Shown here one piece after another: positions 15,740 through 20,928 of a DNA stretch of 40,859 nt. Source of the DNA: Actinomycetota bacterium (GTDB taxonomy: Bacteria; Actinomycetota; Acidimicrobiia; Acidimicrobiales; Ilumatobacteraceae); assembly GCA_016871295.1 (NCBI GenBank), contig VFZD01000007.1, positions 1 through 40,859 on the forward strand, written 5' to 3'. The number at the start of each line of letters is the position of its first letter. Position 1 is the stretch's first letter. A model generated the notes under the pieces. That model had not been told where the DNA came from and searched no databases. It saw only the letters and a list, made by a program, of their open reading frames with translations. Both the position numbers and the translations under genes were made by a program.

Positions 15740-16114
15740 CTAGATGCTGGCGACAACGGCCACGGCCGTATCGCTGGTGTGCGAGAGCGAGACGTGCCAA
15801 CCCTTGACACCGCGTTGCGCCGCGAGCTGGGCGGCGCGACCCACGACCACGAGTTCGGGTGCGCCTGTCTTTTCATTGCGGACCGAAACATCGCGCAGAT
15901 CGAAAGCCCCGAGCCCGACACCCAGCGCCTTCATCGCCGCTTCGCGCACGGCGAAACGCGCGGCCAAACTTGCGGTGATGTCGGCGTCGGGGCTGCGCCG
16001 TGTCAGCGACTCAATTTCGGCGTCGGTGAAAACTCGCGCGCGAAGATTGGGCGTGCGAGCCAACGCATCGCGAAACCTTTGCACGTCGACGATGTCGACA
16101 CCCAGCCCGATCAT
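15740..16114 (-). CDS. acpS: Holo-[acyl-carrier-protein] synthase
   Basis: Transfers the 4'-phosphopantetheine arm of CoA to acyl carrier protein. From ATG 16114 the protein has 124 residues, normal for AcpS. It carries the magnesium-binding GLGVDIVDVQRF (3-14) and the ARFAVREAAMKALG segment with the second acidic ligand. The end HVSLSHTSDTAVAVV is typical. An upstream in-frame ATG at 16138 would overlap the preceding gene; the chosen start lies 5 bases after that stop. Confidence 0.95.
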   Translation of the reverse strand: MIGLGVDIVDVQRFRDALARTPNLRARVFTDAEIESLTRRSPDADITASLAARFAVREAAMKALGVGLGAFDLRDVSVRNEKTGAPELVVVGRAAQLAAQRGVKGWHVSLSHTSDTAVAVVASI

Positions 16115-16119
16115 CGTTG

Positions 16120-19100
16120 CTACTTGCCCGTTCGCCAAAGATCGGCCATCTCGCTGATCGGCAAGATCAACAAGTCGGCCACCGAGACTTCGGCCAAACG
16201 ATCTTCCCTGAACGAGCCCTCGGTCTCGGTCACCCAGTCGACCAACCTGTCGTATCGACGGTCGTAGCCCTGCAGCACCGCGCGCATCGCGGTCACGGGC
16301 AGGCGCTCATGAAACAACACGTGCAACAAGGTGATGCCCGTGGTCTGGCCGCTCTTTGTCTCGGGCACCATGATCACGGTTCGATTGTCGCTTCGACCCC
16401 GCACCACCAAAACCTCCTGGTCGCTGGCCACTCTGCGCTTCGTACCGACGAGGTTCGAGTTTCTTTCGACGCGCGAGGTCAGGTTCTTCGACATTCCGCC
16501 ACGATCGACGATCGCGATCGTCGCGGTCGAGCCCTGAACATCCCCGTCGATCCGATATCTGGTGAAACCCGTGACGGAACTGACCGCGGCATCCAAGTCG
16601 GCGACGATCTTCAGCACCCGATATGAAAGACGCTCGCGAGCCACACCGGCTTCGAGCAGGCTCTTCACCAACTTGCGATCGAACAAACCCTCGTCGCTGC
16701 GAGAAATACCGACCGTCACCGTCTTTGCCTGGTGCTTGATCGCGTCCACGGGTCTTGTCAATTCGTCGATGCCGCGGGTCAACGCGCTGGTCAGATCGTC
16801 GAGCAACAACTCGGGCGACGCGATCTTTCCCGAACTGCGTTGATACGCCTGCACCGGATCATTCGACAATGTGTCGCGCAACATCGTCACGATTCGCACC
16901 GCCGTGCTGGCCTCGAGATTGCCGTCATAATTTCCGGTCGCCAACGCGTCGGTAAACCGTGTCGCGGGCACGCCCAAGTCCGTGCGAATTTTCCCCACCA
17001 ACTCGTTCGCATCACCGCCTCTTTCAACGGCGTGCTCGACCACCTCGCGGGCCTCGCGCAACGGCCGGGCCAAGGCGTCGATCGCGAGCGCCGCCTCGTA
17101 GCCGAACAGGTGTCCGACCATCACGCTCAATATGAACGACAAACTGCTCTCGACATTCGGCACCAACAGCAGCGCGGCCGCGGCGTCGAACCTGGTCTGG
17201 CCGGCGTTGGCCACGACGATCGGCAACGCCTTGTGCGCCCGATAGATGGCGATTTCTTTCGCCACGTCCGAGGCGGTCCCCTCGAGCAAACCGGTGGCAC
17301 AAACAAAAATCAAGGGCTCACACGAAAGATCGATGTGCTTTTTATCCTCGGTCGAGTCGCTTGAAATCGACTTGTAGCAAAGTTCCGACAATTTGATGCG
17401 GATTTCCTGTGCGGCGATCGTGTTCATGCCGTTGCCAACCACCGTCCAATATCGGCGCGACGAGGCGAATTGTCGCGCGGCCGCGGCGATCTGCGGGCGT
17501 GTCTCGAGAACTTCGACGAGCGCATCAGGAATTCGCCTCAGCCCCGTCAGCAGCGCGTGTCGGGCCTTGTCGCTCGACTTGTTCATCGCCTTCGACAACG
17601 CGCACGCGTAAAGCGCGCCCGCGGCAACCTGCGCATAGAACGCTTTCGTGCTGGCCACGCTCATCTCGACATCTCTGCCATCGGACGTATACATCACTCC
17701 GTCGGCCTTCTCTGAGAGTTCGCTGCCTCGACGATTGACTATCGCCAACACGCCCGCCCCGCGTGACCTGGCCAAATCGACCGTCCGGTTGGTGTCGGTG
17801 GTCGTGCCACTTTGGCTGACCGCGATGACGATCGTGTCGGACATATCGAGTTCGAGCCCGAAACCCGACAGTTCACTCGCCAACTGGGCTTCGATGCTCA
17901 GGTCAACTCCGATCAGTTCCTGCAAAAGTTTGGCCAGTGCCTGACCCGCGACGGCCGCCGTGCCCTGCCCGACGACGCGAACTTTCTTGATTTGTCCCGA
18001 ACCCAAGCGACTGCGAATCGACTTGGGAAATACTTTTTCGCCCAATTCGGTGGTCAGGACTCCGTCGACCTCGACGATGCGGCCGCGCAGTGTCTTTCTG
18101 AAACTCTCGGGAGCCTCGGCGATTTCTTTGGCCAAGAAATGCTTGTGGTCGCCACGATTGATGTCGCGGGTTGTTATCTCCGCGCACAGCACATTGTCTT
18201 GACCCAAAGAAATTTCACGACCGTCGTAGGAACGGAGCCGAATGCCGCTCAATTCGCCGGCTTTCTCGGCCGACAATGTCGCCACTTGGCCGCGGCTCGA
18301 AGCGTTGTCTGTTTCGACGAGCGCCTCGCCATCCATGCGCACATAGTTCATCGTCTCTTCGACCACGCCATATGGCTCGCTCGCCACCACGAATCGATCT
18401 TCTGCCAACCCGATGCACAATCCTTGACCGCTGCCGTGCAGTGCGAGCAAAAGTTTCGTCGGCTCGGTCGCGCTGGCCGCGGCGATCGCCACCGAACCCT
18501 CGAAATGCGACACCGTCTCGCGAAATGCTTCGCTCAAATCAGAATTCACCGCGAGTCGACGCGAGACCAACGCGGGTATCACCTTGGCATCGGTGGTTAT
18601 CGGCCCGGCCACGCGCAACCCGTGTTCGACTCGCAAGTCGGCGTGGTTGTCGACGTCCCCGTTCAGCGCCGCGACCAGATAGGCGTCGTCGTATTTGCCC
18701 TCGAGTTCTTCGCTGTTTACCGGATGCGCGTTCGGCTCAGAGATGATGCCGACGCTCGCCCAACGCGTGTGCGCCAGAACCGCCACCTGCGAATCGGGTT
18801 GCGAGATGCACAACCGCAACAGATCATCGGCCATCACGGCATTGCGCATCGCACGGGTGTTGTCGCCCAACTCGCCGATTTCGGCCGCCGCTTTGTAAAC
18901 GAACGACCAGGCATTCTCGGTCATTCGCACCGCCCCCGACATGAACAAGGCGTCATCACCACGACCAGCCAGCAGTGCCACGACGTCTCTGTCGGTGGCT
19001 TTCAACCCGTGATTCGAAACCAGCACGTGAACTCCGGCCGAATCTCGTCCGCGAACTTCGAGACGATCCAAACCCGAGAAAGCTTGCTGAATCGAAAAAT

Positions 19101-19530
19101 AGCCGCTCCGCGCCGACGCCGAAGCGCCCTGACCCGCCAGGGCGTCCACCAACTTGGCGGTGCGAATTCGGTCGTTGCGCAACTCCCAAATCGCGTCTTT
19201 GGCCCTCGTGATTTCTTCGAGCACGTGCTCGGATTTTTCTGATTGCGGGCTTGCCGACTTCTCGAGCGAAACCTCGTATGCCGAGACCATCGATTCAAGT
19301 TGATCGATGCGCGATGTCATCGAGGCGATGAGCTGGTGATTGTCGGCCATGCAAAACTGCCCGGCATCTCCGCGCAGCAATTTGTCGACGGTCGTTACCG
19401 TCGCGGCAAGTCGATCGATGTAGTTCTTCGCACCCGCCTCGAGCGCCGAGTCCAAGAGCCTCAAAATCTCCTTGGCCGTCGGCGTGTTTCGGCTCGTCCT
19501 GCGGCTGAGCACGCAGATGATTCCGCACAT
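16120..19530 (-). CDS. glmS: Expanded GlmS-like glutamine-fructose-6-phosphate aminotransferase
   Basis: At 1136 residues this is nearly twice the usual ~610. The N-terminal glutaminase core is recognisable: nucleophile C2 in MCGII, then, after about 150 extra residues (11-158, helical, low complexity near 92-100), RGRDSAG (160-166), HTRWASVG (254-261) and NG..DN (290-295). The first SIS domain follows, after the HFLAKEI..APESFRKTLRGR linker (464-484), with SQSGTTTDT (572-580). The second SIS domain (about 690-830) has GNG and KLSELCYKS but lacks the usual AYPAGELKHGP. A segment resembling the catalytic GlmS C-tail (QAKTVTV, K936) comes after about 90 extra residues, and another 195 unassigned residues end the protein. 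Its position directly after glmM supports amino-sugar synthesis; activity is inferred. Confidence 0.85.
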   Translation of the reverse strand: MCGIICVLSRRTSRNTPTAKEILRLLDSALEAGAKNYIDRLAATVTTVDKLLRGDAGQFCMADNHQLIASMTSRIDQLESMVSAYEVSLEKSASPQSEKSEHVLEEITRAKDAIWELRNDRIRTAKLVDALAGQGASASARSGYFSIQQAFSGLDRLEVRGRDSAGVHVLVSNHGLKATDRDVVALLAGRGDDALFMSGAVRMTENAWSFVYKAAAEIGELGDNTRAMRNAVMADDLLRLCISQPDSQVAVLAHTRWASVGIISEPNAHPVNSEELEGKYDDAYLVAALNGDVDNHADLRVEHGLRVAGPITTDAKVIPALVSRRLAVNSDLSEAFRETVSHFEGSVAIAAASATEPTKLLLALHGSGQGLCIGLAEDRFVVASEPYGVVEETMNYVRMDGEALVETDNASSRGQVATLSAEKAGELSGIRLRSYDGREISLGQDNVLCAEITTRDINRGDHKHFLAKEIAEAPESFRKTLRGRIVEVDGVLTTELGEKVFPKSIRSRLGSGQIKKVRVVGQGTAAVAGQALAKLLQELIGVDLSIEAQLASELSGFGLELDMSDTIVIAVSQSGTTTDTNRTVDLARSRGAGVLAIVNRRGSELSEKADGVMYTSDGRDVEMSVASTKAFYAQVAAGALYACALSKAMNKSSDKARHALLTGLRRIPDALVEVLETRPQIAAAARQFASSRRYWTVVGNGMNTIAAQEIRIKLSELCYKSISSDSTEDKKHIDLSCEPLIFVCATGLLEGTASDVAKEIAIYRAHKALPIVVANAGQTRFDAAAALLLVPNVESSLSFILSVMVGHLFGYEAALAIDALARPLREAREVVEHAVERGGDANELVGKIRTDLGVPATRFTDALATGNYDGNLEASTAVRIVTMLRDTLSNDPVQAYQRSSGKIASPELLLDDLTSALTRGIDELTRPVDAIKHQAKTVTVGISRSDEGLFDRKLVKSLLEAGVARERLSYRVLKIVADLDAAVSSVTGFTRYRIDGDVQGSTATIAIVDRGGMSKNLTSRVERNSNLVGTKRRVASDQEVLVVRGRSDNRTVIMVPETKSGQTTGITLLHVLFHERLPVTAMRAVLQGYDRRYDRLVDWVTETEGSFREDRLAEVSVADLLILPISEMADLWRTGK

Positions 19531-19554: not shown

Positions 19555-20928
19555 TTATCCGCCGAGCCGAGACGTGATCGAGTCGACGAGTTTTGCAGCC
19601 ACGCTTTCGGCAACGGACTGCTCGGTGGCTTCGACCATCACCCGCACCAGATTTTCGGTTCCGCTGGCGCGTACGAGCACTCGACCGTCTTGCCCCAAAA
19701 GTCTTTCGCCCAAGGCCAGCTCGGGGGCAAAGGACCGCTCACCTTCGGAGACCTGCTTCGAAACCTTTACGTTGCGCAACACTTGCGGAAAACTCGTCAT
19801 CGAACTCGACGCGATCTCGCTCAGTTTCAACCGGGTGCCGACGAGCATCCTCGCCAAGACGAGCGCCGCGAGCAATCCGTCGCCGGTGGTCGCCAAGTCG
19901 CGGTAAACAATGTGTCCGCTTTGTTCGCCCCCCAAGACGAGATCGTTCTCTTCGAGCGCGACCAGAACCGCACGGTCGCCAACCGGCGTGGTCACGACCG
20001 CTATGCCATTGGTTTTCATCGCCCGATGAAAACCAATGTTCGTCATCACCGTGACGGCGACGCTGTTGTTGCGCAATACGCCGTTCTTTTTCATTTCAAT
20101 TGCGCTCATCGCCATCAGGTGGTCGCCGTCGACGATCGAGCCGTTTTCATCTGCGGCGATCAGTCGATCGCCGTCACCGTCGAAGGCGACACCGAAATTG
20201 GCCCCGGCGTTTCTTACGGCGGCACTCAATGCTGCGGGATGTGTCGCGCCGCAATCGAGGTTGATATTGCGACCATCCGGGTTGTCGTTGATCGTCGAGA
20301 TCTTGGCCCCAAGACCGACGAACACGGTCGATGCGATCTTGCTGAACGCACCGTTGGCGCAGTCGAGCACGACATGCAGATCTTTCAACGACACACGGCC
20401 CACCGCGTCGAGCAAAAACTCGCAGTATTCTTGCACCAGCGAAGCCTGATCCGTCGGCCGGGTTGACCGAACCGTTTTCGCCGCCTTGTTCGCTTCAACC
20501 GACGAGTTCTTGTCGTGCGAATCGCCGGTCGGCGAAGAACCGAGCCTCGACACGAGTTCGTGCTCGATCTCTTGTTGCTCGGCCTCGGAAAGCTTTCGAC
20601 CGCCCCGACCGAACACTTTGATTCCGTTATCCGAATAGGGATTGTGCGACGCCGTTATCGAAATCGAGACGGCGTTTTGGGTCGATGCGGCGAATGCGAT
20701 CGCGGGTGTCGGGGCGACCCCCATCAAACCGACTTCGACGCCTGCGGTCGTCAGCGCACGCGTGATTGCGGCTTCGAGAACGCTGCCAGATTCGCGGGTG
20801 TCGCGACCGACAAGCACCTTCGGTGCGTCGAGAACTTCGGCCACGACCACGGCCAGATTCGCGACATAACTTTCGGTTAGTTCGCTGCCGAACTTTCCAC
20901 GAACACCATCAGTGCCGAATTTCAACAC
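19555..20928 (-). CDS. glmM: Phosphoglucosamine mutase
   Basis: Interconverts glucosamine 6- and 1-phosphate on the way to UDP-GlcNAc. The 457-residue protein has the phospho-serine S94 in TASHNP, the magnesium loop DGDGDR near 250 and the sugar-phosphate-binding RASGTEN near the C-terminus. It starts with GTG. A polar stretch of about 30 residues near 137-165 (SPTGDSHDKNSSVEANKAAK) seems longer than usual. The gene sits 3 bases downstream of rpsI and 24 bases upstream of the GlmS-like gene, a typical actinobacterial order. Confidence 0.97.
   Translation of the reverse strand: MLKFGTDGVRGKFGSELTESYVANLAVVVAEVLDAPKVLVGRDTRESGSVLEAAITRALTTAGVEVGLMGVAPTPAIAFAASTQNAVSISITASHNPYSDNGIKVFGRGGRKLSEAEQQEIEHELVSRLGSSPTGDSHDKNSSVEANKAAKTVRSTRPTDQASLVQEYCEFLLDAVGRVSLKDLHVVLDCANGAFSKIASTVFVGLGAKISTINDNPDGRNINLDCGATHPAALSAAVRNAGANFGVAFDGDGDRLIAADENGSIVDGDHLMAMSAIEMKKNGVLRNNSVAVTVMTNIGFHRAMKTNGIAVVTTPVGDRAVLVALEENDLVLGGEQSGHIVYRDLATTGDGLLAALVLARMLVGTRLKLSEIASSSMTSFPQVLRNVKVSKQVSEGERSFAPELALGERLLGQDGRVLVRASGTENLVRVMVEATEQSVAESVAAKLVDSITSRLGG

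Follow-up and report, generated by a model that had tools for sequence, protein, structure and literature searches.

The window, a stretch of 40,859 nucleotides from a bacterium of the Ilumatobacteraceae (Acidimicrobiia, Actinomycetota), carries on its reverse strand a GlmS-like gene encoding 1136 amino acid (aa) residues (Table 1). The open reading frame starts with ATG, runs uninterrupted through all 1136 codons and is separated from the preceding glmM by 24 bases; rpsI lies upstream of both genes, and acpS, alr, tsaE, tsaB, rimI and tsaD follow downstream. This gene order bears out the proposal of an earlier sequence-only reading that the protein occupies the glmS slot after glmM. A search for a standard glmS elsewhere in the genome of the window (G000; 1.52 Mb, 91% complete, a draft of 101 contigs) found no second GlmS homologue. 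At window positions 15740-15800, acpS and alr are immediate neighbours in the genus of the window and its near relatives (loci L022-L036), and about 1.4 kb separates these two genes in many relatives (loci L039-L061), a difference which suggests gene loss in the streamlined genus of the window.

Table 1 Features of the long glmS gene and its neighbours, with domain boundaries in residues of the 1136-aa protein and coordinates in the window.
Feature	Residues	Window position	Strand	Basis
glmM, upstream neighbour		19555..20928	(-)	ORF reading and locus comparison
Long-form GlmS gene, 1136 aa		16120..19530	(-)	ORF reading, homologues, profile matches
MCGII start, N-terminal Cys nucleophile C2 (E. 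coli Cys1)	1-10	19501..19530	(-)	C2 invariant 51/51; strand 3-9 in model
Helical insert 1 (five helices), placed after the first strand and before the first helix of the glutaminase domain	11-137	19120..19500	(-)	Model secondary structure
Rest of glutaminase (GATase) domain; RGRDSAG 160-166, HTRWA 254-258, NG 290-291, D314	138-455	18166..19119	(-)	Pfam GATase_6 250-385
First SIS domain; SQSGTT 572-577, VAST 625-628	456-650	17581..18165	(-)	Pfam SIS 515-642, E 6.3e-18
Second SIS domain; E709, K713, E716, H732	651-820	17071..17580	(-)	phmmer to 1jxa; VIA Z 43 to 2j6h; invariant residues
Helical insert 2	821-925	16756..17070	(-)	Model; 103-109 aa in homologues
GlmS C-tail RPVDAIKHQAK936TVTVGISR, lying within the chain and not at its end	926-944	16699..16755	(-)	Conservation and model
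C-terminal domain (CTD), candidate PAS/GAF-like fold	945-1136	16123..16698	(-)	Predicted structure, fold matches
acpS, downstream neighbour		15740..16138	(-)	Frame overlaps long glmS end by up to 19 bases

The motifs singled out in the sequence-only reading (C2, RGRDSAG 160-166, HTRWASVG 254-261, SQSGTT 572-577 and K936) all lie where it had placed them. The three extra segments it had delimited were also recovered, as helices at residues 11-137 and 821-925 and as a separate domain at residues 945-1136; it had missed an expansion of the glutaminase loop between RGRDSAG and HTRWASVG (within residues 167-253), which is longer by about 49 residues than in E. coli GlmS. Alignment of 51 homologues revealed that inserts 1 and 2 (mean pairwise identity 0.38 and 0.51, respectively; insert 1 ranging from 121 to 140 aa) vary faster than the core, while the most conserved segment is the C-tail, with a mean pairwise identity of 0.96 and 16 of its 19 residues invariant, and the CTD (0.61) falls between the inserts and the C-tail. 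Pfam search of the protein recognised only GATase_6 and one SIS domain, and the GlmS models of NCBIfam matched residues 235-816 with scores below their cut-offs (TIGR01135, 240 vs 418 bits; NF001484, 266 vs 381 bits). Profile searches of Pfam and NCBIfam returned no credible known family for the extra segments; weak matches to MMR_HSR1/EngA in these segments were taken as chance.

Structural modelling in AlphaFold2 with the 51-row alignment yielded a model with pLDDT 87 and pTM 0.77, in which pLDDT drops below 50 only near the C-tail, at about residues 928-947. The fold of the glutaminase domain, both SIS domains and the C-tail is present in the model: VIA-align superposed residues 2-940 on residues 1-608 of E. 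coli GlmS (2j6h) with 590 residues aligned at 3.8 A (Z 43.0), and the alignment extends to the last residue, 608, of the E. coli enzyme. The additions of the model relative to GlmS are the helices at 19-132 (insert 1) and 841-925 (insert 2) and residues 945-1136. The long form therefore shares with E. coli GlmS (PDB 2j6h, 1jxa) the whole 608-residue fold at 26% identity, the glutaminase and isomerase catalytic residues, the C-tail motif A-K-[ST]-V-T-V and the pathway role adjoining GlmM, and differs from it in its length, its two helical inserts, a longer glutaminase loop, an internal C-tail, an extra C-terminal domain, the replacements C300 to Q and S303 to A, and a score below the TIGR01135 cut-off. 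Human GFAT-1 (PDB 6svm, 6r4j) matches equally well (Z 43.5 over about 606 residues) and is likewise a GlmS with added regulation, through UDP-GlcNAc feedback and PKA; however, its C-tail (residues 670-681; PMC8041777) closes a chain of about 680 residues, and its control acts via the isomerase domain and the interdomain linker, without a role for a C-terminal domain. NagB-II and other tandem-SIS deaminases and isomerases share the tandem SIS fold (Z about 28-36) but lack a glutaminase domain.

Residue conservation was scored in the alignment of the 51 long forms. The glutaminase residues C2, R256, W257, N290, G291 and D314 (E. coli C1, R73, W74, N98, G99 and D123) are invariant in all 51, as are S572, Q573, S574, T577, V625, S627, E709, K713, E716, K731, H732, A935 and K936 of the isomerase and C-tail, which correspond in that order to E. 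coli S347, Q348, S349, T352, V399, S401, E481, K485, E488, K503, H504, A602 and K603; the pairing of A602-K603 with A935-K936 rests on the A-K-[ST]-V-T-V motif together with the structural alignment. In GlcN-6-P synthase, catalysis is carried out by C1, E488, H504 and K603 (PMC9272926). Among the mapped residues only two differ from E. coli GlmS: in the sugar-phosphate pocket (S303, S347, Q348, S349, T352, V399 and S401) everything is kept except S303, replaced by A525, and nearby C300 is replaced by Q522. In the rewritten stretch of the second SIS domain, SELCYKSISSDSTEDKKHIDL, the spacing from E488 to H504 (16 residues) is preserved. The sequence-only reading was right that the usual AYPAGELKHGP is replaced here, SDSTEDKKHID standing in its place, but in 51 of 51 sequences K731 and H732 preserve K503 and H504, and E716 preserves E488. 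Its suggestion of a changed fructose-6-phosphate site is supported weakly, by the Q522 and A525 replacements, and is opposed by the retention of the three isomerase catalytic residues. The scenario it had weighed against itself, a second, normal GlmS in the genome with catalytic residues lost from the long protein, does not describe this genome, where the residues are kept and no second GlmS was found.

Predicted alone, the CTD gave a model with pLDDT 94 and five strands. Among solved structures it is best matched by the segment 173-361 of L-GDH180, the large (180-kDa) glutamate dehydrogenase of M. smegmatis (7jsr; Foldseek E 4.7e-4, VIA Z 9.2), with 159 residues aligned at 10% identity, and the next matches, at Z 6-7, are sensor domains of the GAF, PAS and Cache types; a Z of about 9 is only slightly above the background of 7-8 reached by unrelated models. 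The PAS-bearing N-terminal segment of L-GDH180 is thus the nearest fold to the CTD, although the catalytic core of that enzyme is unrelated and sequence-profile support for homology with the CTD is absent. Comparison with an alignment of 19 N-terminal regions of actinobacterial L-GDH gave an hhalign probability of 0.1%, leaving a link at the level of fold only. Searches of the CTD of 30 long-form members gave no Pfam PAS or GAF match, and no sequence match of the CTD to solved structures was obtained; PAS profiles often miss genuine members. We therefore treat the PAS/GAF-like character of the CTD as a fold-level lead from modelling, short of a firm assignment. In 150 class genomes, strong CTD matches (E 1e-67 or better) number one per genome and always form the terminal part of a long GlmS; the only other hits in these genomes were two, both partial, with E about 3e-4 and probably due to chance.

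These features bear on what the additions do. The long form could be a working GlmS in which the extra blocks are structural, providing oligomer contacts, stability or partner docking, and not a metabolite sensor, a view to which we give slightly less than an even chance and which is about as likely as a sensor role. It is favoured by the helical, faster-varying nature of the inserts, by the lack of a recognisable ligand-binding family for the extra blocks in profile searches and by a CTD Z score only modestly above background, while a CTD with 26 invariant residues, several of them charged (R991, K1031, D1048, R1050), placed directly on a mobile C-tail, and a list of its matches filled with GAF, PAS and Cache sensor folds argue against it. 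The regulatory module that the sequence-only reading had proposed is plausible, in the form of a PAS/GAF-like C-terminal domain fused to the C-tail.

Genome searches covered Actinomycetota. The contig scan gave 587 relatives, and nearly all of the 80 kept are full length, with 53-88% identity; 75 long-form loci were read to the stop codon, all but one encoding 1111-1153 aa. Nearly all genomes of the window's own family carry the long form. The idea that the gene is a pseudogene or an error of assembly or reading frame, for which the draft state of the window's genome could speak, is refuted by these homologues and deserves practically no credence, since about 75 loci and some 136 class genomes, single-contig genomes (G062, G170 and G063) included, show the same architecture, with invariant catalytic residues; the extra blocks thus do not stem from a sequencing or assembly error, as the sequence-only reading had allowed. 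In one two-contig genome (G046:C1:1179746-1183184) the long glmS is interrupted near residue 736 and reads as two open frames, reflecting either an assembly frame error or a real split gene. Viral contigs contained no relative and plasmids only ordinary GlmS-like matches covering about 60% of the query, so that a phage or plasmid origin is unsupported.

We then classed GlmS in 296 Acidimicrobiia genomes of at least 90% completeness according to whether the best match by E was to the long protein or to TIGR01135, values that are sharply bimodal. The long form was found in 136 genomes, the standard form in 155 and neither in five, and none held two complete genes; because the genomes share ancestry, these counts represent far fewer independent events than genomes. 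By reading of the tables, no family within the class mixes the two forms. The five genomes of at least 90% completeness with no clear long or standard GlmS (G182, 98% complete in 40 contigs, and G273, G108, G166 and G192) probably reflect assembly gaps. Two weak exceptions to the exclusion were seen: G308 combines a long form with a fragment of the standard form, 236 aa long and lying at the edge of a contig, which may be contamination, and G366, outside the class and with 5% contamination, has both forms. A second class, that of G484, comprised four genomes with the long form, 15 with the standard form and none with both. Such exclusion is expected of two versions of one essential enzyme, and the gene order in both states is the same, rpsI-glmM-glmS-acpS-alr-tsaE-tsaB-rimI-tsaD, as in L159 (standard) and L171 (long). 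In G484 (L153, G484:C4) and G431 (L155, G431:C7) the long glmS lies outside the glmM operon, adjoining a recN-like gene, and no standard GlmS gene was found in either genome; G467, of the same family, has kept the standard gene after glmM. It is likely that the long gene was transferred into these two genomes and the standard gene lost, a natural replacement.

Elsewhere in the window's genome (G000:C12; L203:339-1436, + strand, outside the window), GlmU has only 365 aa, stopping near position 345 of the 452 of TIGR01173, and so lacks the last part of the acetyltransferase beta-helix. Sampled genomes throughout the window's order share this truncation, whichever form of GlmS they carry, and GlmU is mostly full length in the rest of the class. 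A link between the long GlmS and the truncated GlmU was therefore rejected, as truncation tracks the order and not the GlmS type.

In a tree built from core columns, all 30 long forms sampled fall into one clade with support of 100, about 8.4 changes per column from the clade holding the actinobacterial and E. coli GlmS. With so long a branch, the protein looks less like a recently enlarged actinobacterial GlmS than like an old, separate branch, a divergent sister of the known enzymes, though the same length leaves the root and the exact depth soft. The branch, the replaced C300 and S303 and the rewritten loop of the second SIS domain might also indicate a related amidotransferase with another product, a different ketose phosphate or amino sugar instead of GlcN-6-P. 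We regard this as improbable given the exclusion with the standard GlmS, the shared operon slot adjoining glmM, the need of cell wall synthesis for GlcN-6-P and the retained equivalents of E488, H504 and K603. On a GlmM tree the GlmS type has to change five times, and well-supported branches force two of these switches (a soft count from a quick tree), suggesting that the type was switched more than once or exchanged in place.

Taken together, we consider it probable that the long form is the sole working GlmS of this bacterium, a double-size sister enzyme whose CTD may act as a sensor via the C-tail. Its parts differ in strength. That the long form is a working GlcN-6-P synthase is very probable, judging from the invariant residues, the fold, the position and the exclusion with the standard GlmS, whereas a CTD that senses a ligand or partner and acts via the C-tail is a model-based proposal standing at, or a little under, even odds. 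Cys2 at the N-terminus would hydrolyse glutamine, the tandem SIS isomerase would receive the ammonia, fructose-6-phosphate would be bound as a Schiff base by K936 of the C-tail, and E716 and H732 would carry out the isomerisation. The C-tail of known GlmS is a mobile element with residues of both active sites (PMC8041777). In the long form it is internal and joined directly to the CTD, compared to a free end that couples the two active sites in known GlmS, and the CTD, placed immediately after AK936TVTVGISR, may sense a ligand or partner and so set the position or mobility of the C-tail, a direct allosteric control. The helical inserts may pack around the core, form oligomer contacts or support control by the CTD. 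By its sequence score the protein would be filed as a sister group that works like GlmS but stands outside the TIGR01135 equivalog. No description of the long GlmS was found in the open-access literature searched, and databases may well list the protein under a generic name.

Peptidoglycan receives its amino sugar through GlmS, an enzyme already studied as a drug target. In a large, mostly uncultured actinobacterial group, with about half of the Acidimicrobiia genomes sampled, the long form stands in for the standard enzyme; in these Acidimicrobiia, about one sampled genome in two, the GlmS escapes current profiles at their curated cut-off. More tentatively, the long form may be a self-contained allosteric GlmS, in which a metabolite, e.g. 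a hexosamine-pathway, nucleotide or nitrogen signal, would switch the first committed step towards cell-wall precursors through a sensor welded to the C-tail, and which would have repeatedly displaced the standard GlmS, with at least one transfer into another actinobacterial class. A clade-wide sister enzyme of double size that is interchangeable with the ordinary GlmS in one slot offers natural comparisons of long and standard forms in related families, and the long-form clade makes regulation of GlmS by a fused domain through the C-tail directly testable.
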